Shown here piece after piece: positions 2,738 to 13,880 of a DNA stretch of 13,880 nt. The notes under the pieces are model-generated. The model did no database searches. It saw only the letters and a program-made list of their open reading frames with translations, and was not told the origin of the DNA. The position numbers and the translations under genes were made by a program. Positions within the stretch are counted from its first letter, which is position 1, and the number at the start of each line of letters is the position of its first letter. This DNA comes from Thermoplasmata archaeon (lineage in GTDB: Archaea; Thermoplasmatota; Thermoplasmata; GCA-020350865), in contig CP070726.1 in assembly GCA_020350865.1 (NCBI GenBank), positions 1,718,731 through 1,732,610 on the forward strand, read 5' to 3'.

Positions 2738-3655
2738 TCACAGTAAATTAACACCCATAAGCTCCAGTCCTCCCATCCTCAGTGATACATCCAGGATGAT
2801 GGAGACGGAAAACAGCCAGAACCAAAGGGAGGACTCTATAAATGTTTTTGCAGCCAAACCGGGATTCGGATCCTTTATGAGATTGACCGCCAGCTTGATC
2901 AGGATAACTGCCGATATCACGGACCCCATCAGGAAAACAAACCCAAGCCCAGTGAAGGCAAAAAGAACGATGGACATGAGCAGGACCACAAGCCAGCAGA
3001 GGAGGATGAACTGGGCCACATGCCTGATTCCGTATTTCACAGGCAGTGTTGGCACGCCCCTCATTTTATCCACTTCCATATCCCTGCACACCCCGCTCCA
3101 CGTGAAACCCGGTTCGTAGAAGAATAGAATCACAAGGAGGAGAACGGCCTCAAGGGTGATCTGGTGGGTGTACACGAAGAACACTCCCAAGGGCATCAGG
3201 GCCGTGGGCAGCACCACGAACATATTCGAGTAGGTGACCCTGCCCTTCATGAACCTGGAATATGTGAAAATCGAAAGCATCTGGATGATGCCTACAATAC
3301 CTGTAAGTACGCTGAGGTAGAATAGGATGAGCAGCGATGGGATGCCCAGGATGGCGGCGTATCCCAGGAGGGTCTTTTTCGGAATACCAAACTGCACAGC
3401 CTTGGGTATGGGTGCCCCCATGTCCAGTTCAGCATCGTAGTAGTCGTTCACGGCATAGCCCGAGGTCACGCCCAGGTAGGAGGCGAGTACGATGAGGAGC
3501 AGCTTCGTATAGAACAGAGTATCTCCATGCACGGGCGATGAAAAATCGCCATATTCAATGGAGGCGAAGAGGGCCATGGCCGCCACCCAGGGAAAGGTAA
3601 CGATGCCGATTACGGGTCTCATGGTGATGATGAGCCCCTTTAATCTACCTGTCAT
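2738..3655 (-). CDS. UbiA-family prenyltransferase (first copy)
   Basis: Integral membrane prenyltransferase of 305 residues; the family joins a polyprenyl diphosphate to an aromatic ring or to a glycerol-phosphate ether. The first Asp-rich motif is NDYYDAELD (70-78: N70, D71, D74, D78). The second is DMEVDKMRGVPTLPVKYG (192-209, D192 and D196). About eight to nine hydrophobic helices surround these, as expected. In archaea the main options are digeranylgeranylglyceryl phosphate synthase (lipid ether bond) or a quinone/phenazine prenyltransferase; I cannot separate these by eye. The ATG is preceded by GAGGTAAGAGGC, and a TATA-like TTATAATAAA lies at 3701-3710. It is separate from the second UbiA gene and close to the divergent M23-like gene. 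Confidence 0.9.
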   Translation of the reverse strand: MTGRLKGLIITMRPVIGIVTFPWVAAMALFASIEYGDFSSPVHGDTLFYTKLLLIVLASYLGVTSGYAVNDYYDAELDMGAPIPKAVQFGIPKKTLLGYAAILGIPSLLILFYLSVLTGIVGIIQMLSIFTYSRFMKGRVTYSNMFVVLPTALMPLGVFFVYTHQITLEAVLLLVILFFYEPGFTWSGVCRDMEVDKMRGVPTLPVKYGIRHVAQFILLCWLVVLLMSIVLFAFTGLGFVFLMGSVISAVILIKLAVNLIKDPNPGLAAKTFIESSLWFWLFSVSIILDVSLRMGGLELMGVNLL

Positions 3656-3790
3656 GCCTCTTACCTCAAGCGCGCCAATTTTTGGGGGAAAACGATGTTC
3701 TTTATTATAACTCTTTTTAACTGAAGTAAAATAGACAACATACCTCCTGCAACCCCAACTGATAATAACAATTACTTGTATGTCTTGCCA

Positions 3791-4792
3791 ATGATACCTG
3801 TGGCAGAATCACAAGGCATCACCATCCATGCCCCGCCAAAGGGCATTGTCGGGTTTAACACGAGCCCGTACCCCGTGCATGTACAGGGTGGTGCGGTGGA
3901 CCTGTTCCCCGGCAGTGATTTTTCCATCCCTGTCAAAAGCCCTGTTTTTGGAAAGGTGACCTTCATAGAAAAAAACAAGGTGGGTATCGCCCGACATTTC
4001 AATGCCGACCCAAACGACTACATCATGGCAATCGAGCAGAAGAAAACCTGTGTGCGCATGCTTCATGTAAAACCCAAAATCGGTGTGGGAGAGGCAGTGG
4101 AGGTGGGGGATGAACTGGGCACATACCTGCGCAGCCCCCTGCTCCCCTTCTGGTCGTACCCCCATATCCATGCGGAGGTAAAGGACTGCAGGGATGTGCA
4201 AAGTCCGTTGAACGCCCACCCCTTGAACCTGCTCGGCTCAGGGGAATTCAAGGGTGCCCCCAAAACCGATTATGTGGGATTTGAGGCTGAGGTGCTTCGC
4301 GCCTCTGAAAATTACCTGATCGTCCTGCCCGACATGGATATATTCGGAAACATCGGTAATTACTGGGGTGTTGCATTGGGCGTAGGTGAGGAGTTTGCAC
4401 TGCTCGATGCCCAGGCGCCCTGGAACTGCTACGGCGGTTTGCTACTTCCAAAGGATTCAGATGTCAGGGAGGGACAGGAGGTGTTGTTCGGTGCCGTTTC
4501 CCTGGGTGTCGTAGTGAAGCGCAAGGGGAATTATGCCACCTATGCTTTCGGAGGGGAGCTGGGAGACGGGATCGACAGGTATTCCAAGGGACTGTTGTAT
4601 AAAGATGTGGGCAGGTTCAACGTGCCCTACAAACGCATCAAGGTTAACGACGATATTTTTCTCGGCATATCCACAAGTCTCTCCCTCTACGAAAACAGAA
4701 CCCTAAAACTCGTTCCCGCACAGCCCCTGGAAAGGTCATATGAGGAGGGGGAAAAAGTGTCCATCGAATTGGATATTGGCAATGGCGATTGA
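3791..4792 (+). CDS. Protein with degenerate LytM/M23-like domain
   Basis: A 333-residue protein (numbering from ATG 3791) with no obvious signal peptide or membrane helix. Residues about 25-132 resemble the LytM/M23 metallopeptidase fold: GGAVDLFP (33-40) at the place of the HxxxD metal motif, SPVFGKVTFIE (50-60), MLHVKP (90-95) matching the YxHL strand, VGEAVEVGDELG (99-110) and PHIHAEV (124-130) with the HxH signature. The first metal ligand is not conserved: the residue four before Asp37 is Gly, although His30 lies nearby. The protein may be a non-catalytic relative or a lipoyl-like barrel. Residues 160-333 form a second, unrecognised domain. TTG at 3776 is an in-frame alternative start; neither has a good ribosome-binding site. 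It is divergent from the first UbiA gene and convergent with the second. Confidence 0.8.
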   Translation: MIPVAESQGITIHAPPKGIVGFNTSPYPVHVQGGAVDLFPGSDFSIPVKSPVFGKVTFIEKNKVGIARHFNADPNDYIMAIEQKKTCVRMLHVKPKIGVGEAVEVGDELGTYLRSPLLPFWSYPHIHAEVKDCRDVQSPLNAHPLNLLGSGEFKGAPKTDYVGFEAEVLRASENYLIVLPDMDIFGNIGNYWGVALGVGEEFALLDAQAPWNCYGGLLLPKDSDVREGQEVLFGAVSLGVVVKRKGNYATYAFGGELGDGIDRYSKGLLYKDVGRFNVPYKRIKVNDDIFLGISTSLSLYENRTLKLVPAQPLERSYEEGEKVSIELDIGNGD

Positions 4793-4827: not shown

Positions 4828-5805
4828 TTACCCACCCAAACCCCAGTATCCCACATAATAGGTGAGCATCAGGGCATTTCCAATGACGAGCAGTATGCAA
4901 AGGGACAATATGGCGTAGTACACACTTTTGAACGTCATTTTCCTGAGCAGGAGGGCATAGACCACCACCTGGGCCAAGGCAACGGGCCACACCACCATGA
5001 TTAACTCCGGTGTAATAAAGTAATGATTCAGACCCATGTATATGATGACAGCGTTTGCTATGGTGATGGACGCCACCCCAGAAAGGTAAGCCGTTCTTGT
5101 CCCGAATCTGACCGCAAATGTGTTCACACCTGCAGCCTTGTCACTCGCATGGTCGATGATGGTGGTGGGGATGTAAATGGCTGCAACACCTGTCATCGAG
5201 GCAATTCCCCAGACAAATGGATAATCGACAAATGACTTTACAATGATCCACCCTGCAATGGAGCACAGCAGACCGCTGCCCACCATATTGGTGATGACAT
5301 CCAGCCCGGCCCTTTCCTTTATCCGAACGGGGGGGGTTGAGTACGAGAGCGAAAGCACCAGGCAAATCCCGACCAGAAGGGCGAATACAGGGGACACAAG
5401 AAGCGAGAACAGCACGGCAAGCAGCATGAAGATAATGGACGTGCGGAAAACTGCTTCCTGCGAAAGCAGTCCCTGCGGCAGGGGGAAGAGGCCCTTTCTC
5501 TTGCTGCCCCTATCCACCTCGCTGTCCCAGTAATCGTTGTAAAGCAGGGTGGAGCCTCCAAGGAGCGGACCAAGGGTCAGAAGGGCGAAAAGAAAGGTGG
5601 TGAACTCCGCCGTGTTCTCCGAAGAAGAGGGATTTGAGGCCAGTAAATCCAGAATAAACGTTGGAAAGAGCTTGCCCGAGGCAAAAACCCAGGCCATGTA
5701 GAATGGTATGATGGATACCCCCCAGAATATGGGGACCATGTGCTTTAGCAGGTATCGCAGGATCTTCAAAGGGGAGACTTCATACGACCTATCAACAATC
5801 GGCAT
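4828..5805 (-). CDS. UbiA-family prenyltransferase (second copy)
   Basis: A 325-residue polytopic prenyltransferase, only distantly similar to the other copy. The first Asp-rich motif is NDYWDSEVDRGSKRKG (90-105; D91, D94, D98), the second lies in IIDHASDKAAGVNTF (216-230; D218, D222). SYSTPPVRIKER (154-165) resembles the S-x-PP-K loop of chlorophyll-synthase-like and other UbiA members. A hydrophilic stretch at 57-68 after the first helix is longer than usual. The gene starts 29 bases after the HdrD-like stop, so it is the third gene of a leftward operon (FAD oxidase, Fe-S protein, prenyltransferase). The acceptor is unknown; the redox partners upstream make a prenylated redox carrier as likely as a glycerol ether lipid. 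Confidence 0.9.
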   Translation of the reverse strand: MPIVDRSYEVSPLKILRYLLKHMVPIFWGVSIIPFYMAWVFASGKLFPTFILDLLASNPSSSENTAEFTTFLFALLTLGPLLGGSTLLYNDYWDSEVDRGSKRKGLFPLPQGLLSQEAVFRTSIIFMLLAVLFSLLVSPVFALLVGICLVLSLSYSTPPVRIKERAGLDVITNMVGSGLLCSIAGWIIVKSFVDYPFVWGIASMTGVAAIYIPTTIIDHASDKAAGVNTFAVRFGTRTAYLSGVASITIANAVIIYMGLNHYFITPELIMVVWPVALAQVVVYALLLRKMTFKSVYYAILSLCILLVIGNALMLTYYVGYWGLGG

Positions 5806-5834: not shown

Positions 5835-7046
5835 TTACATGGCCTTGGCCACAACGTCTGCGATATCCATAACGTTCATTTTAAACTTTTTACCCTTCGC
5901 CTTCATCTCCTCTTTTTTTGCCTCAACACCTATACTTATCTGCCCCTTGCAGTTGGCACAGGTGGAGACAATGGTTTTGGCACCAAGCTCTATGGCCTCG
6001 TCCACCTTCCTCGCCGTGATCTTTGTGGTGAGATCGTAATCCACAGCCTTCAGGCCCCCGCCTCCGCCGCAGCACTCGCTATCCATCCTGTTGTTGTGAA
6101 ATTCCAATATCCCATCCACCCCGGGGACACTGTTCAAAATCTTCCTAGGCTCCTCAAAGATACCCCTGCCCTCAAGCTGCGCGATTCTTCCCAGCTCGCA
6201 GGGATCATGGTACACTATGGGCAGGTTCTTCTCCTTGAACGGTTTTGCATACTCGATCTTTTTCTCATTGATGAGCCTGAATATCATCTCCGAGGTGTGC
6301 AACAGCTCGAAATCCATCTTTCCCACATATTTTTTGTATTTGTTCAGAGCCCGGTAGCATCCGGGGCAACCCGTGACAACTGTTCGGGCACCGCGCCTTT
6401 CTATCTGGGACACATTGTGCTGGGCAATATCCTTGAATGTGTCGAACTGACCCGTCATCAGGTTGATGGCCCCGCAGCATTTTTCATCCTGACCCAGTGT
6501 GGTGAAATTGACACCTGCCTTGGAGAGAATCTTCATGGTGTTCAAAAGCACCTGGTATTCGTGGTACGATGCCATGCACCCAGGAAAATACACAACCTCG
6601 GCTCTGGCCGGGAGTTTGTAATCGTCCTTGTACCATTCATCCCGTTTTATCTTGGGCTCCATGAAGGGGTTCCAGAATTCCTTCTTTTCGATGTTGTCGT
6701 GCATGTCCCGGGCTGCCCGGGGCGGTCCGTATCCGTTCTCCACCATCCACTTCTTGGCCTCTTCCCAGAACTCGTGAAACTCTATTTCCACATGGCACAC
6801 GGTCTCGCACCGGCTGCACAGGGTGCAAGTGAACATCTTCTTTATCCATTCGTCGCTTGGTTTTATCTTGCGCCCAAGGAGCTTGTCCATCAGGCCCTTT
6901 TCGGCCAGCTGCTTCATGAAGTAGACTTTCCCTCTCGGGGTGAGGGATTCCCAGCCCGTTTCCTTGTAAACGGGACAAATCGAGCGACAGTAACCGCATT
7001 GAAGACATGCGTATACATCATCTATATTTGGTACTTTCATTCCCAT
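5835..7046 (-). CDS. HdrD/GlpC-type Fe-S protein with two CCG domains
   Basis: Iron-sulfur subunit of the HdrD/GlpC/GlcF type, 403 residues from ATG 7046. Two ferredoxin motifs lie at C14-C17-C20-C24 (CLQCGYCRSICP) and C74-C77-C80-C84 (CTLCSRCETVCH). Two CCG domains follow: C157, C190-C191-G, C227/C230, and C283, C325-C326-G, C363/C366. Both CCG domains look complete, as in heterodisulfide reductase HdrD, where one holds the noncubane [4Fe-4S] centre. No membrane helix is present, so any contact with the membrane would need a partner. It overlaps or abuts the FAD-oxidase gene (stop 7051), a classic pairing that passes electrons from a flavin to membrane carriers. Starts at 7061, 7046 and 7040 are all possible; GTGATC upstream, complementary to the 16S tail, favours 7046 or 7040. 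Confidence 0.92.
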   Translation of the reverse strand: MGMKVPNIDDVYACLQCGYCRSICPVYKETGWESLTPRGKVYFMKQLAEKGLMDKLLGRKIKPSDEWIKKMFTCTLCSRCETVCHVEIEFHEFWEEAKKWMVENGYGPPRAARDMHDNIEKKEFWNPFMEPKIKRDEWYKDDYKLPARAEVVYFPGCMASYHEYQVLLNTMKILSKAGVNFTTLGQDEKCCGAINLMTGQFDTFKDIAQHNVSQIERRGARTVVTGCPGCYRALNKYKKYVGKMDFELLHTSEMIFRLINEKKIEYAKPFKEKNLPIVYHDPCELGRIAQLEGRGIFEEPRKILNSVPGVDGILEFHNNRMDSECCGGGGGLKAVDYDLTTKITARKVDEAIELGAKTIVSTCANCKGQISIGVEAKKEEMKAKGKKFKMNVMDIADVVAKAM

Positions 7047-7050
7047 GGGA

Positions 7051-8628
7051 TCACTTCGCATGAGCAGCGGATTTGATATCCATCTTGGGTTTGATCTTCA
7101 TTCCAGGCAGCCTCTTCATCATGGCCATCATATCCATCCCGAAGTTCATGCCAAAGGCCGGGATGGGAATGCCGAAGCGGGTCATTCCCTCCGTGGTTTT
7201 CCCCGGGTTCATGACATCGTAGGGATCCATGGATGACTTGATGCTGATCATCACATTCGCCCCCCCGCCGTGGAGTTTCTTCAGGTTCGATGCAAAGAAG
7301 ATTCCCAGGCCGGCGGGTCTTCCCCCCAGCTTGAAGGAGAGGTCCCCGATTTTCTTGATGAACGACATGGTCATCATGGACCTTAATTTCCTTTCATCTG
7401 TGAGGGCATAGGGCATGAACGTGACTGTGGACCTGTCCGATACCATGCCTGTGATTGCTGCCCTGAGGCCCATCTTCCTGATGACCTTCGACGTTCCTGT
7501 TATCATCTCATTCAACCGGGAGACGGGAATCATGCCTTCGGCCAGCAGAATGGTGGGTCCAAGCCTCTTGATGCGCATCTCGAAGAACCTCTCGTCCCAC
7601 TCGTGTTGTGCGAATTCGGGGCTCTGCTTCTCTCCGTCATGTTTCTGGGAGATCCTGTCCATGACCGCCTCCTCCACGTCCAGGGAGACCTTGGAACCCT
7701 CAAGGGCGATGAGTACCGTGGCCTTCGTATCCGTGACCTTCTTGCCCATCTGTTTGAGGTATTCGAAGTGCTTCTTCTCGAAGAAGGATATGTGAAGAGG
7801 CGTCACCTGGGAGCGGGTGATATCTGAAATGGCATGGCACATCTCCTTTGTCCCAGGAAAAACGTAGGCCAAGGGCCGGATCTCCTCTGCCACGGGATAA
7901 ATTCTCAACGTCACCTTGGTTACGATGCCCAGCGTACCCTCCGAACCTGCGAAGAAGGTGCGCAGGTTGTCCACAATCGAGCCTGATTTTATGGAGGATG
8001 AGCCGAATTGTGCAATCTCGCCTTTTGGAAGCACCATTTCAAGTGCCACAATCTGCTTTTCCACACCACCGTACTTGTAGGAACCCACCCCCACCCCGCC
8101 TGTGTTGATCCATCCCCCCACGGTTGCGGCGGGAGCGCTGCTGGGATACGCACCAATCATGTATCCCTTTCTCAGCAGATGCTCACGGAGGTCATTCCAG
8201 GTGATCCCCGGCTCCACGGTCACCGTCATGTTCTCCTGGTCAATTCCGAGTATGGAATCCATTGTGGCCATATCCAGGAGAATCCCTCCCAGAACCGGCA
8301 CAGCCCCTCCCAGAGCCCAGGAGGCACCGCCTCTCGGCACAACGGGAATCCCCTCCTCCGTGGCCAGTTTAACCACCCTGGATACCTCCGATGCATTCCT
8401 GGGACGCACCACCACATCCGGCTTCATCTTAAAGCCCATCTCCATCATCTTCGGAAGAGGTGCCAGGTCGTGGCTGTATAATCGGCGCTCCAGGTCATCA
8501 TCCGAAATTCTGGTGCGGTCCACTATGCCGGAAAGCGATTCGTAGAGATCAGAATGCTCTATTGATGCCGCTTTTTCTGTGGATTCGTTCTCTTTTTCTG
8601 TTTCATCTTTTTTGTCGGATTTCCCCAT
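7051..8628 (-). CDS. FAD-linked oxidase, GlcD/D-lactate dehydrogenase type
   Basis: Flavoprotein dehydrogenase of 525 residues. The PCMH-type FAD-binding domain is clear: PDVVVRPRNASEVSRVV (70-86), VVPRGGASWALGG (96-108), VEPGITWNDL (138-147), YPSSAPAATVGGWINTGGVG (161-180) and FAGSEGTLGIVTKVTLRIYP (226-245). The C-terminal substrate domain ends in a typical DPYDVMNPGK box. The family oxidises 2-hydroxy acids such as glycolate or D-lactate; it also includes alkyl-DHAP synthase, so the substrate is open. Two oddities are seen: a charged N-terminal extension of about 25 residues and a C-terminal tail rich in Met (MDMMAMMKRLPGMKIKPKM). ATG at 8628 has GGAG four bases upstream. It is the first gene of the operon with the HdrD-like protein, the likely electron acceptor. 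Confidence 0.92.
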   Translation of the reverse strand: MGKSDKKDETEKENESTEKAASIEHSDLYESLSGIVDRTRISDDDLERRLYSHDLAPLPKMMEMGFKMKPDVVVRPRNASEVSRVVKLATEEGIPVVPRGGASWALGGAVPVLGGILLDMATMDSILGIDQENMTVTVEPGITWNDLREHLLRKGYMIGAYPSSAPAATVGGWINTGGVGVGSYKYGGVEKQIVALEMVLPKGEIAQFGSSSIKSGSIVDNLRTFFAGSEGTLGIVTKVTLRIYPVAEEIRPLAYVFPGTKEMCHAISDITRSQVTPLHISFFEKKHFEYLKQMGKKVTDTKATVLIALEGSKVSLDVEEAVMDRISQKHDGEKQSPEFAQHEWDERFFEMRIKRLGPTILLAEGMIPVSRLNEMITGTSKVIRKMGLRAAITGMVSDRSTVTFMPYALTDERKLRSMMTMSFIKKIGDLSFKLGGRPAGLGIFFASNLKKLHGGGANVMISIKSSMDPYDVMNPGKTTEGMTRFGIPIPAFGMNFGMDMMAMMKRLPGMKIKPKMDIKSAAHAK

Positions 8629-8918: not shown

Positions 8919-10001
8919 TCAGAAATGTCCCAGTGCCTTTAATCTCATCACATACCTGTGGGCCCTCTCGGGACTTGACAGGACGCGCTCCACAAAATCA
9001 ACATCCCTAAGGGAGCCAAGACCGCTTTTATCCAGTTGCTTTGAATACATATGCCCCAAAAACCCGGCATCGAACACGCCCTCTTCAAGGGCCCGGGCTG
9101 CCACCTCCCCCGCTATCCTGCCGCTTTTAACAGCGTAGAATACACCTTCACCTGTGCCCGGGAAAACAAAACCACCCGCGTCACCAGCCAATATCACCCT
9201 CCCGGAGGTCAGAATGTCCAGTGGCCCCTTCATCGGTATGAGGTGGCTCTCGAAATGCTCCATGTGTCCATTAGCCAGCCTCTCCCTCACCCTTTCATGC
9301 TCCAAGAAATCGTCCAGGATGGCCCTGGAATCCCTTTTGAACTCGAGGGATGTGGCCCCGCAGCCCACCTTCACAGCGCTCTTCAACGGGCTTATCCAGA
9401 AGTAGCCGTAGGGGAGGGTGTAATGGACCTCGAACCACCCGCCAAACTGCCTGTTGATTTCCCCTTCCGGAAGCGAGATTTCGTACTGCACCCCAAGTGC
9501 CGTATCACCTTCCTCATTCATCCCGGAACCTTTAGCAAGGCATGTCTTTTTCACCCTTGAATTCACACCATCTGTACCGATGACGATTTTGGCCTTGGCA
9601 GCGAAGCCCTCCCCGATGATCTTCACACTGTCATTTCCTGGTACACACTCGGTAATCCGCATCTGCCTCGGTTTCTTTTTCAGTCTGTTTACTAGAAATA
9701 AATCGAAGTTCTCCCTTCGCACTATGGCTCCGGGTTTGGGAAAAACCGATTCAACCATTTCTCCCTGGGGTGAGAAGATGCGGTATCCCTTCAATGGCAT
9801 CTCTATAACGTCTTCGGGTATATCCAGTTCCGAAAAAATCCGGGGCGGCAGCACACCCGCACAGGCCTTCTTTCTGGGAAATATCTCTTTGTCCGTTAAA
9901 AGTATGCTGTAGCCCCACTGTTCCAGGGTATAAGCGGCAGAGGAGCCTGCCGGTCCTGCCCCGATGATCGCCACGTCGTACATCACGGTGTCATCATCCA
10001 T
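8919..10001 (-). CDS. Geranylgeranyl reductase family flavoprotein
   Basis: A 360-residue FAD-dependent reductase that, by family, saturates geranylgeranyl double bonds of archaeal lipids or of quinone side chains. Visible motifs: N-terminal Rossmann GAGPAG (14-19), RKKACAGVLPPR (43-54) with the conserved cysteine C47, IGTDGVNSRV (141-150), PYGYFWISP (198-206) corresponding to the YxWxFP substrate motif with a Ser replacing Phe, and LAGDAGGFVFPGTGEGV (271-287) binding the flavin. Length is slightly below the usual 390-400 residues. ATG 10001 is taken as start; ATG 9983 is an alternative. Two minus-strand TATA-like elements are available, TTTTATAT (10069-10062) and CTTAAATTG near 10029; the latter would give an almost leaderless mRNA. 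It lies in the same strand and neighbourhood as both prenyltransferases, in line with a role in isoprenoid membrane components. Confidence 0.92.
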   Translation of the reverse strand: MDDDTVMYDVAIIGAGPAGSSAAYTLEQWGYSILLTDKEIFPRKKACAGVLPPRIFSELDIPEDVIEMPLKGYRIFSPQGEMVESVFPKPGAIVRRENFDLFLVNRLKKKPRQMRITECVPGNDSVKIIGEGFAAKAKIVIGTDGVNSRVKKTCLAKGSGMNEEGDTALGVQYEISLPEGEINRQFGGWFEVHYTLPYGYFWISPLKSAVKVGCGATSLEFKRDSRAILDDFLEHERVRERLANGHMEHFESHLIPMKGPLDILTSGRVILAGDAGGFVFPGTGEGVFYAVKSGRIAGEVAARALEEGVFDAGFLGHMYSKQLDKSGLGSLRDVDFVERVLSSPERAHRYVMRLKALGHF

Positions 10002-10129: not shown

Positions 10130-11110
10130 TTGCTAACTACGGAAGAGACCATTGAGACCCTGCACAAAGAGCATCTGGATGCCCTCATCTCCCGGGCATG
10201 GAGCATCAGAAACCAGAACTTTCCGCCTATCCTCAACGTGTCCGCCCCCAGTGCCAAGACGTACATCACCGATCATTTCAGGAATGCAAAGAACAGGTTT
10301 GTCAACATCAGTGTCACAGGCCAGGGATGCAAGTTGAACTGCGAGCACTGCGGAGGTAAGCTGCTTGATTCCATGGAGGCCGCAGCAAGTCCACATGAAC
10401 TTACAGAGTTGGGAAAGGCACTTATACAAAAGGGGTGCAAAGGCGTTCTTATCAGCGGCGGGGCAAGGGAAGACGGCAGTGTGCCCCTGGATAATTACAT
10501 GGAGGCCATAAGAAATCTGAAGGACATGGGTCTGCAGGTCATTGTCCACTGCGGCCTTGCTTCGAAAGAGACAGCTGAGAAATTGAAGGGTGCAGGAATC
10601 GACCAGGTGCTCATGGATGTCATCGGCGACGCCGAGACAATCAGGCAGGTGTACCATCTCAACAAAACCCCGGAGGACTTTGAGAATTCCCTCAGGATTA
10701 TCAGGGATGCGAATTTGGCCATGGCGCCGCACATCGTGGTGGGTCTTCATTACGGCAGGATCCTTGGGGAGTACAATGCCCTGCGGATGATATCTGAAGT
10801 GTCACCCGATGTCATCGTCCTCGTGGTGCTGTCTCCCATGCACGGCACACCCATGGAAGGGGTTGTGCCTCCGGCAAAAGAGGAGGTGGCGAAGCTGGCG
10901 GCAGTGGCGAGGATAGTCAATCCAACAGCACAGATCACATTCGGATGCGCAAGGCCGGCGGGTTCAGAAAAACCTGAGCTGGAAAAGCTGTTGATCAAAT
11001 CCGGGATAAATGCCATTGCCTACCCAACTGACAAGGCCGTTGAGTACGCGGAGAACCTGGGCCTGAATATTGAGTTCTCGGAGATGTGCTGCTCGTTACT
11101 GGGCATGTAG
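10130..11110 (+). CDS. BioB-like radical SAM protein, candidate archaeal lipoyl synthase subunit
   Basis: Radical SAM enzyme of 326 residues. The cluster motif is C67-KLN-C71-EH-C74 (CxxxCxxC) preceded by FVNISVTGQG, followed by a glycine-rich LISGGAREDGS (about 107-117) typical of SAM binding and by a TIM-barrel-like alternation. Near the end is a vicinal C320-C321, a plausible ligand pair for an auxiliary cluster. The overall layout matches the archaeal 'biotin synthase homologue' group, two members of which (LipS1 and LipS2) form the archaeal lipoyl synthase; I assign it to that group from memory, without alignment. The GcvH-like carrier at the left edge would be a natural substrate. A second LipS partner is not in the window. 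Start is TTG, forced by an upstream stop and supported by GGTGA. A T-rich stretch follows the stop codon. Confidence 0.85.
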   Translation: MLTTEETIETLHKEHLDALISRAWSIRNQNFPPILNVSAPSAKTYITDHFRNAKNRFVNISVTGQGCKLNCEHCGGKLLDSMEAAASPHELTELGKALIQKGCKGVLISGGAREDGSVPLDNYMEAIRNLKDMGLQVIVHCGLASKETAEKLKGAGIDQVLMDVIGDAETIRQVYHLNKTPEDFENSLRIIRDANLAMAPHIVVGLHYGRILGEYNALRMISEVSPDVIVLVVLSPMHGTPMEGVVPPAKEEVAKLAAVARIVNPTAQITFGCARPAGSEKPELEKLLIKSGINAIAYPTDKAVEYAENLGLNIEFSEMCCSLLGM

Positions 11111-11159: not shown

Positions 11160-11191
11160 TGCACAAATCCCCGTGCAAAATGATTTATAAG
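11160..11191 (+). promoter_or_regulatory. Leaderless promoter of the monoheme surface protein with inverted repeat
   Basis: TTTATAAG (11184-11191) is a near-consensus TATA box whose centre is about 26 bases before ATG 11213, so transcription should begin at or next to the start codon. TGCAC (11160-11164) and GTGCA (11173-11177), separated by eight bases, form an inverted repeat ending six bases upstream of the box, where an archaeal regulator could act. A separate 10-bp palindrome CCGATATCGG lies at 11131-11140. Confidence 0.6.
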
Positions 11192-11212
11192 AATATCACA
11201 ATATTATCTGGA

Positions 11213-12121
11213 ATGAAGATGCGCTCCGCACGGATGATCCTTTGGCTTTTCGTCTTCTGTCTGGTTTCCACTGGAACCATCACATCCTGTGGACATGAGG
11301 GAGGGCCAGAAGAGCCCTTTTCCGACGGAAAGGACTGCATGTCCTGTCATGAACCGAATCCATATCTGGGTCTCGGTGCGGGGCATTCCTCCTTTTCCGT
11401 GGGGGAATCCGAACCTGCCATCGGCATAAGGGTGAGGGTGGATATGGCTGACATGCCTGCAAAATCGGACAAGTACGGTGTCATGCTGCTGACAACAGAT
11501 AGGGGCAACATATCGGAGGCCGGGTGGACCGTTGTTGCCGATCCCAATGGAACCGCACCGCCAAGTAGCTACATAGAAAGGCCGGCTTCGGACAACAGCT
11601 TCCTTCATTGGCGGGTGAATAACGCCCCCGGGAATCATACCGTCAAGGTTGTGGTGATGTTCGGGTCCGATGGCGACCCCTATTATAAGGAGCTCGATGT
11701 GCCCGTTCCCATACCTGAACCTGCCGAGAATACTCCCCCCCAGTTAACAAGTCCCACGGCACTGCTCCTTGCGGACGGGAAAACCTACGATTTCGAGGTC
11801 ACCTATTCCGATATCAATCACGATACCCCATTAAACGTCACAGTCAACATCAGCGGTCTGGGCTCATTCGAAATGGAGGAAAAACCCCCGGGACCCTACA
11901 ACGCCACGGCGGGGGTGACCTTCTACCATCTATCCGTACTTCCGGAGGGCAGGTACTCGTACCATTTCTCAGCATACGACGGCTATTCATGGAACTCCAC
12001 CTCTAACAGGGAATTGAGAGCGTTCGAAGAGGAGGAGGAAATCGACATCACACCCTTGGCCTTGGGCGTGTTTGCGGGGTTGATCGTTATTTCGGCGGTA
12101 TTTGTTCTGAGAAGAAGATGA
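11213..12121 (+). CDS. Surface-anchored monoheme protein with Ig-like domains
   Basis: An exported protein of 302 residues. The N terminus is a signal peptide (hydrophobic about 8-24) ending ITSC26, which resembles a lipobox. A single c-type heme motif C42-MS-C45-H46 follows, and then a beta-rich domain (about 55-165) reminiscent of the choice-of-anchor V/Reeler-like domains that often carry one CxxCH in front. Residues 174-270 read as a second Ig/PKD-like domain (PPQL...DFEVTYSD...AYDGYSW). The C terminus has an acidic stretch, a membrane helix (about 278-298) and RRR, a stop-transfer anchor. Seven N-x-S/T sequons (N99, N112, N141, N208, N212, N230, N261) suggest glycosylation outside the cell. 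ATG 11213 is chosen over 11180 because the TATA box falls just inside the longer frame. The multiheme cytochrome gene follows by 128 bases, so an electron-transfer partner role is likely but unproven. Confidence 0.88.
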   Translation: MKMRSARMILWLFVFCLVSTGTITSCGHEGGPEEPFSDGKDCMSCHEPNPYLGLGAGHSSFSVGESEPAIGIRVRVDMADMPAKSDKYGVMLLTTDRGNISEAGWTVVADPNGTAPPSSYIERPASDNSFLHWRVNNAPGNHTVKVVVMFGSDGDPYYKELDVPVPIPEPAENTPPQLTSPTALLLADGKTYDFEVTYSDINHDTPLNVTVNISGLGSFEMEEKPPGPYNATAGVTFYHLSVLPEGRYSYHFSAYDGYSWNSTSNRELRAFEEEEEIDITPLALGVFAGLIVISAVFVLRRR

Positions 12122-12249: not shown

Positions 12250-13880
12250 ATGCTGGAATTGGGAGTAGAGAAGATGATATTCGTTGAATCGCTCATCGTC
12301 TTCGCAATCATCGCCCTCATCTGGTTGCTCATATCCGCATTGATATTCAAGAAATTGAACAAGGCGAGAATCAAGGGTGTGATTTTGATTCTTCTGGCCT
12401 TTGTCGGGGTGGCGGCGGCAATTTTCGCAGTGGGGCACTTTCTGGAATGGCACGAGACAAGCGAGTTCTGCACATCCATGGGGTGTCACGCCATGGAACC
12501 TGTGTACGACAGCTACACCCAGCCAGATAACAACAGCTACATGGAGACTCACTACGAGCACAATGTAACGTGCGCACAATGTCACTCCGGTCCGGGTATA
12601 ACCGGACTTGCAGGTTCCTTTTTGGCGGTGCCGGGAGAGGTGTGGGGACAGTACATAGCCGGTTACGACCCCGACGATTTGGGCGGCCATGTCCCCTCGG
12701 AAAACTGCCTCAAGGGCTGCCACGAGGAATACGAGGTGGACTGGAAGTTCGAGGCCCCCCGGCCCGAAGGGGAGGGGTATTCCGAAGTCAATGGTAAGGT
12801 GGTGTGGCTCAGGATGACCACCTACCATCCTGATACGGTGAACGGGACGGACCTTTCGGAACTCGAGGAACTGGAGGACTGCAAGGAATGCCACGACCCA
12901 AGGGACAACGGCTTCGGGCTGGCGGCCGAGGCCTGTCATGTATGCCATGAAGTGGATTCGGAGGAAATGGAGCTACATGGTGTCTACACCTGCCACATGG
13001 CGGCATGTCACCCCAACGAGGAGGGCGAGGCGGGACAACCGAAGCTTAGGGGGCACGCGGTGGTCAAAGGGCACTGTGCAGAATGCCACAGCAGAAACCA
13101 CCCCGAGGACGCCACGGTACCGTACACCGTAATCACAGAAACAGGCACCTTTACAGCAAACACCAGTTTCTGCTCAGGCTGCCATCACGATGCATACAGC
13201 GAGCTTGAGACCGCAGGTTCGAAGCATTTCACAAGCAACGAGTGCCAGGAATGTCACCTATCTCACAAGACCCGCCCCGATTGCCTCCTCTGTCATGATG
13301 AAGGGGGTGCCTATGAACCTCAACACGCCTTGGCGGACCCCTTCGATGACTGCGGTTCCTGCCATGTGCAGGGGGGCCATAATCCCTTGAATGTGGCCCT
13401 ACAAACCCATGACAGCGGTACCGTATCCCGTGATTTCTGCAATGCTTGTCACCAAAGCGACGTGTACGATCGATTCGAGATGGAGGAACTTCATTTCAGA
13501 GAGGGGTTCGTTGAAGACTGCCTTGCATGCCACGGGGAACATGAGGCGGATGTGGATTGCGACACCTGTCATGTGGAGAACGGGTACGGAGGGCTACTCG
13601 ATGATCCCGGCCATACCACCTCGGAACCGTTCGACGAATGCCCCGACTGTCACACAGACGGGCATGATCCCTCTGACCTGAATTTTACACACTTCAGGGA
13701 GCAACAGGAAACCTCCATTGGTCAGGATTTCTGTGTCAACTGTCACTACGAGGAAACGGGGCAGTATCATTTGGCAGAAAAGCTTGAGCTGGACAATTCC
13801 GGTATGGGCCATGCCCTGCAGGACTGCGCCTCCTGCCATGAAGCGCATGAGGAGGACGTGGACTGCCAAGAATGCCACAG
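12250..13880 (+). CDS. Large membrane-anchored multiheme cytochrome c (3' end beyond window)
   Basis: No stop codon occurs before the window ends; 543 codons are visible. Two hydrophobic helices (about 9-33 and 42-62) anchor the N terminus. Eighteen heme-attachment motifs follow: fifteen CxxCH, two CX4CH (C74-C79 and C248-C253) and one CX3CH (C153-C157). The first, CTSMGCHAMEPVYDSY, keeps the CHxM signature of heme 1 in NapC/NrfH quinol dehydrogenases, and VTCAQCHSGPG (106-116) matches their second site. From residue 307 the chain is made of tandem four-heme modules of about 90-98 residues. The protein therefore looks like a quinol-oxidising head fused to an extracytoplasmic heme wire. Sequons (N94, N105, N198, N304, N478) suggest an external location. 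Start may be ATG 12274. Heme lyase or maturation genes are not in view. Confidence 0.93.
   Translation, partial: MLELGVEKMIFVESLIVFAIIALIWLLISALIFKKLNKARIKGVILILLAFVGVAAAIFAVGHFLEWHETSEFCTSMGCHAMEPVYDSYTQPDNNSYMETHYEHNVTCAQCHSGPGITGLAGSFLAVPGEVWGQYIAGYDPDDLGGHVPSENCLKGCHEEYEVDWKFEAPRPEGEGYSEVNGKVVWLRMTTYHPDTVNGTDLSELEELEDCKECHDPRDNGFGLAAEACHVCHEVDSEEMELHGVYTCHMAACHPNEEGEAGQPKLRGHAVVKGHCAECHSRNHPEDATVPYTVITETGTFTANTSFCSGCHHDAYSELETAGSKHFTSNECQECHLSHKTRPDCLLCHDEGGAYEPQHALADPFDDCGSCHVQGGHNPLNVALQTHDSGTVSRDFCNACHQSDVYDRFEMEELHFREGFVEDCLACHGEHEADVDCDTCHVENGYGGLLDDPGHTTSEPFDECPDCHTDGHDPSDLNFTHFREQQETSIGQDFCVNCHYEETGQYHLAEKLELDNSGMGHALQDCASCHEAHEEDVDCQECH
13168..13880 (+). repeat. Tandem tetraheme protein modules within the cytochrome
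   Basis: Module 1 is residues 307-395 (13168-13434), module 2 is 396-493 (13435-13728) and module 3 begins at 494 (13729) and is cut by the window edge after its third heme. Each has the order FCxxCH, then CxxCHxxH, CxxCH and a final FD-x-CxxCH followed by GH. Modules 2 and 3 align most closely: DFCNACH with DFCVNCH, DCLACHGEHEADVDCDTCH with DCASCHEAHEEDVDCQECH. Spacing between hemes varies by loop insertions. Confidence 0.85.

Follow-up and report, generated by a model that had tools for sequence, protein, structure and literature searches.

Among the closest described counterparts of the cytochrome reported here are proteins of the NapC/NirT/NrfH kind (PF03264; NrfH, CymA, TorC), which likewise have an N-terminal membrane anchor, an E-F-C..CHxM first heme site, and a CX2CH second heme; NapC and TorC also have an Asp that aligns with one in our protein. 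That protein is encoded at the end of a stretch of 13,880 nucleotides of DNA from a sediment archaeon, the whole of which we call the window. It differs from these counterparts in having two membrane helices, CX3 or CX4 spacing at heme 1 across its family, and no Lys at the NapC position; about 30 hemes are expected here rather than 4-5, and the match to the NapC profile stops after heme 2. ImcH of Geobacter is alike in placing an anchor beside an atypical CX3CH and a NapC/NirT-like part in one longer multiheme protein, and it is implicated in extracellular electron transfer; by its description it stands apart, with 3 helices, 6-10 heme motifs, and 495-519 aa in the Geobacter group, and it occurs in Bacteria only in that survey, where CbcL is a further published parallel (PMC6295460). 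Set against these traits, our protein has two helices, not three, and 18 motifs in the part within the window, with 26-30 in 16 of 17 relatives; by the membrane part it has CX4CH, where the 18 family sequences P0001-P0018 have CX3CH in 13 cases, CX4CH in 5, and CX2CH in none.

There are archaeal parallels as well. GAH_01256 of Geoglobus ahangari, also from an archaeon, is a NapC/NirT protein that exceeds NrfH in heme number; its description as a 43.6 kDa protein with 10 hemes and 1 helix sets it apart (PMC4600277, PMC8280799). Mco of ANME archaea also has a hydrogenase-type (VhtC-type) cytochrome b gene beside a multiheme gene, but as described it has 7-11 hemes, its cytochrome b gene comes first, and the passages describing it make no mention of NapC/NrfH (PMC9012536). 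The giant multiheme cytochromes of ANME are archaeal chains of 20-80 heme sites proposed to cross the cell wall; MHC-A and MHC-B among them have S-layer domains and C-terminal helices, whereas here the NapC-like head is N-terminal and a C-terminal helix is lacking (PMC9012536). The GSU1996 nanowire is a single-polypeptide heme chain of repeated domains, but it is periplasmic, with triheme domains and 12 hemes, and the account of its domains mentions no membrane head (PMC10138318). Membrane-anchored multiheme proteins of Carboxydothermus have been proposed as quinol oxidizers (PMC7829351), and single-cell genomes of Thermoplasmatales yielded two cytochrome c proteins in a 2015 survey (PMC4429474).

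Three kinds are thus already known: anchors of the NapC/NirT type that bear additional hemes, very long heme chains in archaea, and pairs of a cytochrome b with a multiheme protein. What is new is the size, modular make-up, lineage, and cytochrome b pairing of this NapC-headed form; among the titles and abstract openings that we found, largely outside the subscription literature, none names a Thermoplasmata NapC-headed cytochrome of this size. The original prediction regarded the architecture as unfamiliar from characterized proteins. It has precedents in ImcH and GAH_01256, which also join a NapC/NirT-like part to additional hemes; of the long modular form we found no study.

Anatomy of the cytochrome and its relatives

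The gene for the NapC-headed multiheme cytochrome c (MHC) lies at 12250..13878 on the + strand, in a reading frame of 543 aa that reaches the window edge without a stop. Most relatives in the alignment begin at a Met that aligns with Met9 of the window protein (MIFVES...), so that translation may in fact start at the ATG at 12274. We count 18 heme motifs: 15 CX2CH, one CX3CH (at 153), and two CX4CH (at 74 and 248). Together they account for all 36 Cys of the protein, at two to a motif. Over 2000 shuffles of the residues, CX2CH appeared 0.18 times on average and at most 4 times, compared with 15 observed, and a chance cluster of motifs was rejected on this count. The original prediction had the number of these motifs and its coordinates right, as it did the two N-terminal membrane helices, which appear as hydropathy peaks at residues 10-33 (12277..12348, +) and 41-63 (12370..12438, +) and as helices 4-36 and 38-68 in a low-confidence AlphaFold2 model. 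It was also correct in reading a CHxM first heme as in NapC/NrfH, although the spacing at this site, CTSMGCHAM (12469..12495, +; motif scan and alignment), is CX4CH and not the usual CX2CH.

Ahead of the second helix, the inter-helix loop FKKLNKARIK is strongly basic. Basic loops of membrane proteins sit in the cytoplasm (the positive-inside rule), which puts this loop in the cytoplasm and the predicted position of the hemes outside; a cytoplasmic heme region was rejected by this basic-loop rule only. Heme 1 is CX3CH or CX4CH in all 27 aligned sequences and never CX2CH. CHxM is literal in 24 of the 27, the other three (P0019, P0021, and P0022) having an insertion between CH and the aligned Met. 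In published work, CXXCHXM at heme 1 is conserved in NrfH and some NapC and absent in CymA (PMC13390432).

A protein search with the window protein returned 22 other proteins at E<=1e-5. The 17 relatives P0002-P0018 align with 80-100% of the window protein at 43-68% identity, and 15 of them are 850-884 aa long. CX2-4CH motifs number 30 in seven, 29 in five, 28 in two, 26 in two, and 18 in one; 11 of the 17 have 60 cysteines, and a further hydrophobic helix after residue 90 was found in none. Because the relatives are mostly 850-884 aa with 18-30 motifs, the window gene is taken to be cut by the window edge and should end at about 880 aa with 30 hemes, some 340 more residues and 12 more hemes. 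The full membrane-anchored protein very probably carries a string of about 30 hemes.

Other Thermoplasmata have a shorter kind. At loci L003, L006, and L007 it is 450-541 aa with 14-18 motifs; in a further set of 23 such proteins, 21 are 486-502 aa, and all but P0083 (25) and P0094 (16) have 17 motifs. P0023 has 11 motifs in 407 aa. The distant relative P0027 has 49 in 1364 aa; its head is similar, as is its tail motif (GGCYNCH vs GGCYDCH). Across five related genomes, the MHC has 14-30 motifs. Seven of 400 genomes from the class of genome G001 match at E<=1e-10, and five of these have the head; the other two, G163 and G035, match only to the mid-chain part of a different 12-heme protein. The named relatives are metagenome-assembled genomes of Thermoplasmata or Methanomassiliicoccales, in agreement with the archaeal host first proposed, and P0007 and P0085 are already named 'NapC/NirT family cytochrome c' in their source record. 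A pattern search found no match in viral contigs, and plasmids gave one weak record (25.6% identity). Separately, P0024 (1527 aa), from a record named Desulfuromonadaceae bacterium GWC2_58_13, has 77 CX2-4CH motifs.

The heme region consists in part of tetraheme units of 92-100 aa. From residue 276, the heme spacing repeats in fours (32-24-13-23, 29-27-13-27, 31-31-13) and delimits three units on the + strand: residues 264-355 (13039..13314), 356-451 (13315..13602), and 452-543 (13603..13878), the last cut by the window edge. The first unit is like the others in heme spacing and only weakly similar to them in sequence. In P0002, raw identity outside Cys and His is 16-19 of 70-79 positions among units 2-4 and 5-8 of 68-77 between unit 1 and units 2-4. 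P0016 (26 motifs) and P0017 (18) are 4 and 12 motifs below 30 and have alignment gaps in the tetraheme region; each comes from one contig and could be an assembly product. The lower count of P0015 (26) is no cassette loss, because part of its head is lost instead. L006 and L007 differ by 4 motifs. Two AlphaFold2 models, with mean pLDDT of 50.0 and 59.8, are too poor to place the hemes, and the Foldseek and VIA-align rows of these low-confidence models, in which the NrfH fold (2J7A) was sought, include no cytochrome. The motif counts of 18, 26, and 30, with 14 and 18 in the short kind and 49 in P0027, are those we cite for a tentative idea that we consider more probably wrong than right. It is that of a length-adjustable single-chain heme wire from membrane to surface with a fixed NapC-like head; the tail would likewise be fixed in long members, and the number of tetraheme cassettes between the two would grow or shrink. 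A cytochrome b would feed this wire in archaea that gave no match to the menaquinone genes we looked for, so that the lipid carrier would be an undescribed one or none.

The NapC/NrfH-type head and a possible membrane carrier

The head was identified by Pfam at residues 39-136 (12364..12657, +), where PF03264 scores 29.9 bits against a cut-off of 24.1. The match spans only positions 4-96 of the 174 in the profile, corresponding to the second helix and hemes 1-2. A NapC/NrfH relationship had been proposed over residues 60-230; it is present at 39-136 but ends after heme 2, and the whole of 60-230 is not covered. PF03264 matches at E<=0.01 in 11 of the 18 rows of our family alignment (A1) and is above the cut-off at the MHC gene in 5/5 genomes, in one of them only with neighboring matches added; weaker matches occur elsewhere in G058 and G066. 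The NCBIfam model of NrfH matches all six heads scanned at E<=0.01 (best 5.8e-11), and none of the NCBIfam models of NapC/NirT/NrfH reaches its cut-off for the window protein, whose own head scores 23.6 bits vs 134.2 for the NrfH model. Among solved structures, a sequence search with the window protein alone gave no matches up to E=1. A profile of the head gave three up to E=10, the best being MccA (E=0.71) and none of the NapC kind, and the A1 profile gave five weak matches that include NrfH (2j7a_C, E=0.00071), on a mid-chain stretch and not on the head.

Two positions of the head were compared with E. coli NapC and TorC. One is an Asp of both these proteins, which 7 of 8 family rows and 17 of the 18 rows of A1 retain. 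The other, occupied by Lys in E. coli NapC, holds Gln or Glu in 18/18 rows of A1, and it is not Lys in the 8 family rows aligned with NapC and TorC. We infer that this Lys is the equivalent of CymA Lys91, which, like ImoA Lys101, is described as a quinol-linked lysine (PMC13390432). Judged from sequence, its replacement weakens the case for direct quinol oxidation by the head. The loss need not be fatal, because E. coli TorC, annotated as a menaquinol dehydrogenase, also lacks Lys at this position in the alignment, and direct oxidation may thus still occur.

Profile searches found MenD in 0/5 genomes, an absence that is weak in G058, G066, and G074, which are in many contigs, and MqnA/MqnD (PF02621) in 0/2. 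McrA was likewise found in 0/5, with the same weakness in those three genomes, which does not support methanogenesis. The UbiE/MenG model matches in 5/5 genomes, above the cut-off in two, and a modified membrane carrier is possible because of these matches.

Gene neighborhood and the putative cytochrome b partner

Upstream of the MHC gene, the order UbiA, UbiA, CCG, GlcD, GGR, LipS1, MHC is common to the window and loci L001 and L002, at 52-77% identity. On the - strand of the window are two UbiA-family prenyltransferases (2738..3655 and 4828..5805; Pfam and locus comparison), an Fe-S/CCG protein of the HdrD/GlpC/TmcB kind (5835..7061; 77 and 75% identity, no NCBIfam equivalog cut-off reached), a GlcD-like FAD dehydrogenase (7051..8628; PF01565 and PF02913, 74% identity), and a geranylgeranyl reductase (GGR) family protein (8919..10001; TIGR02032 at 196.1 bits, cut-off 158.8; 55 and 52% identity). 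The conserved neighbor on the + strand is a LipS1-family lipoyl synthase (10130..11110; 251.1 bits, cut-off 230; 63% identity in L001 and L002). Between it and the MHC gene, at 11180..12121 (+), is the gene of a protein of 313 aa that has a single CX2CH and two hydrophobic helices, at 19-37 and 292-310; the compared loci showed no counterpart of it. The presence of UbiA-type and GGR genes next to the MHC gene, in genomes that gave no match to MenD or MqnA/D, suggests an undescribed membrane carrier.

Two other genes of the window were noted in passing. One, between the two UbiA genes (3776-4792, +), encodes a 338-aa protein with no Pfam or NCBIfam match that is 62% identical in L002. The other encodes a GCV_H-like protein (2-442), in the same window as LipS1; L002 also has a protein similar to it (34% identity) in the vicinity of LipS1.

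In 5/5 related genomes, a four-helix cytochrome b-like gene lies directly 3' of the MHC gene on the same strand. The gaps are 21 bases in L001, 20 in L002 (26 if its ATG is the start), 20 in L003, 9 in L006, and 8 in L007. The match to PF01292 (cytochrome b561 / Ni-hydrogenase cytochrome b) exceeds the cut-off for L001 and L002 and stays under it for L003 and L006; L007 has no match. The five proteins can be aligned, with His63, His77, His161, and His206 invariant and position 18 His in three and Asn in two. Because the window ends before this gene, we infer its presence in the source organism, past the window edge, from the relatives. A GlcD-like gene directly follows in L003, L006/L044, and L007, and L001 and L002 have further GlcD and CCG genes beyond an opposite-strand gene.

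Genes for c-type cytochrome maturation are also nearby in relatives: a CcmF-sized PF01578 protein is encoded near the MHC gene in four of five genomes (G001, G002, G066, and G074), and G001 has CcmE, CcmB, and a CcmC-sized protein. Elsewhere, at L009:1111-2058 and L010:1192-2145, a 12-motif multiheme protein with a C-terminal helix is followed by two genes that, by reading only, resemble a split bc-type cytochrome b; this would be a different electron export candidate in other Thermoplasmata.

Proposed route of the electrons

The best explanation as a whole, to which we give a probability of about 0.58, is a membrane-anchored electron conduit that is fed by the cytochrome b and leads over about 30 hemes to an outside acceptor. 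Archaea mostly have no outer membrane. The two helices and the NapC/NrfH/ImcH-like head would hold the protein in the cytoplasmic membrane with the hemes on the outer side. The partner cytochrome b would be reduced by a lipid carrier or, without such an intermediate, by the GlcD/CCG dehydrogenases of the cytoplasmic side; it would pass the electrons to the head, from which they would run along the hemes, in part through the tetraheme units, across the cell wall zone to the acceptor. What we observe directly is the anatomy, the homology, the gene pairing, and, in relatives, the maturation genes nearby; the partnership, the direction of flow, the extracellular acceptor, and the carrier are all putative. 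Delivery of electrons to minerals or to a syntrophic partner would be speculative here. Several observations count against this explanation: the partnership is drawn from gene order only, the window itself ends before the partner gene, PF01292 falls below its cut-off in two of five proteins and is absent in one, and His18 is Asn in two. The AlphaFold2 models are too poor to trace a continuous heme chain, and G058 and G066 have other, weaker PF03264 matches. The terminal enzyme could also be a second multiheme protein, outside-facing and with CXXCK, whose gene in G001 and G002 is some 11 kb further downstream.

The original prediction had both jobs done by one protein, the head itself oxidizing membrane quinol and the same polypeptide exporting the electrons with no need of a cytochrome b. 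The fusion of a NapC/NrfH-type head to a long chain is borne out; that it acts by itself seems unlikely to us. CHxM in 24 of 27 sequences, the nearly invariant Asp, and the lack of Lys in TorC all speak for such a head, and the nearby UbiA, UbiA, and GGR genes could make a prenylated carrier for it. On the other hand, the NapC Lys is replaced in 18/18 rows, NapC similarity ends after heme 2, MenD and PF02621 were found in 0/5 and 0/2 genomes, and the cytochrome b-like gene is paired with the MHC gene in every genome compared. Electrons are more likely to enter through the cytochrome b than through a self-sufficient NrfH-like site.

A different role for the chain, which we consider distinctly improbable, is that of electron donor to a specific reductase at the cell surface that acts on a soluble acceptor, in the way NrfH serves NrfA, and not that of a wire to minerals or partners. 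The second multiheme protein (L037:7524-9647 and L041:4805-7051, both -; 707 and 748 aa) has 6 CXXCH, a shared CXXCK, a carboxypeptidase-regulatory domain, and a C-terminal helix, and is possibly such a reductase; NrfA has a Lys-ligated CXXCK heme (PMC8840924), and the G001 protein scores 24.3 bits with PF02335 (cut-off 24.1). That match is marginal and is not listed for the G002 protein, however, the gene is not adjacent to the MHC gene, and 30 hemes are far above the need of a donor subunit. G058, G066, and G074 carry other multiheme proteins, which also argues against the donor role. A census of G001 over about 77% of the chromosome (2,400,000 bases including 30,500 N, and a further 76 kb or so) found three ORFs with two or more CX2CH (3, 6, and 30 motifs), counted after removal of any ORF that a longer one overlapped. 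It is very improbable that the chain is a capacitor that stores electrons or a path that imports them, with the GlcD/CCG enzymes run in reverse. Repeat-built multiheme chains such as GSU1996 have been proposed as capacitors (PMC10138318), and the transmembrane complexes Tmc and Hmc of Desulfovibrio return electrons to the cytoplasm (PMC10920352), but the genes neighboring the MHC are dehydrogenase-like.

For the biology of these archaea, the MHC and cytochrome b pair addresses the question of how uncultured Thermoplasmata might respire acceptors outside the cell. If chain length does vary by tetraheme cassettes, comparison of the family members would reveal how the span of a protein wire is adjusted in nature. 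As a conserved pair, a long NapC-headed heme chain and one cytochrome b make up a concrete, testable candidate for a minimal export route.
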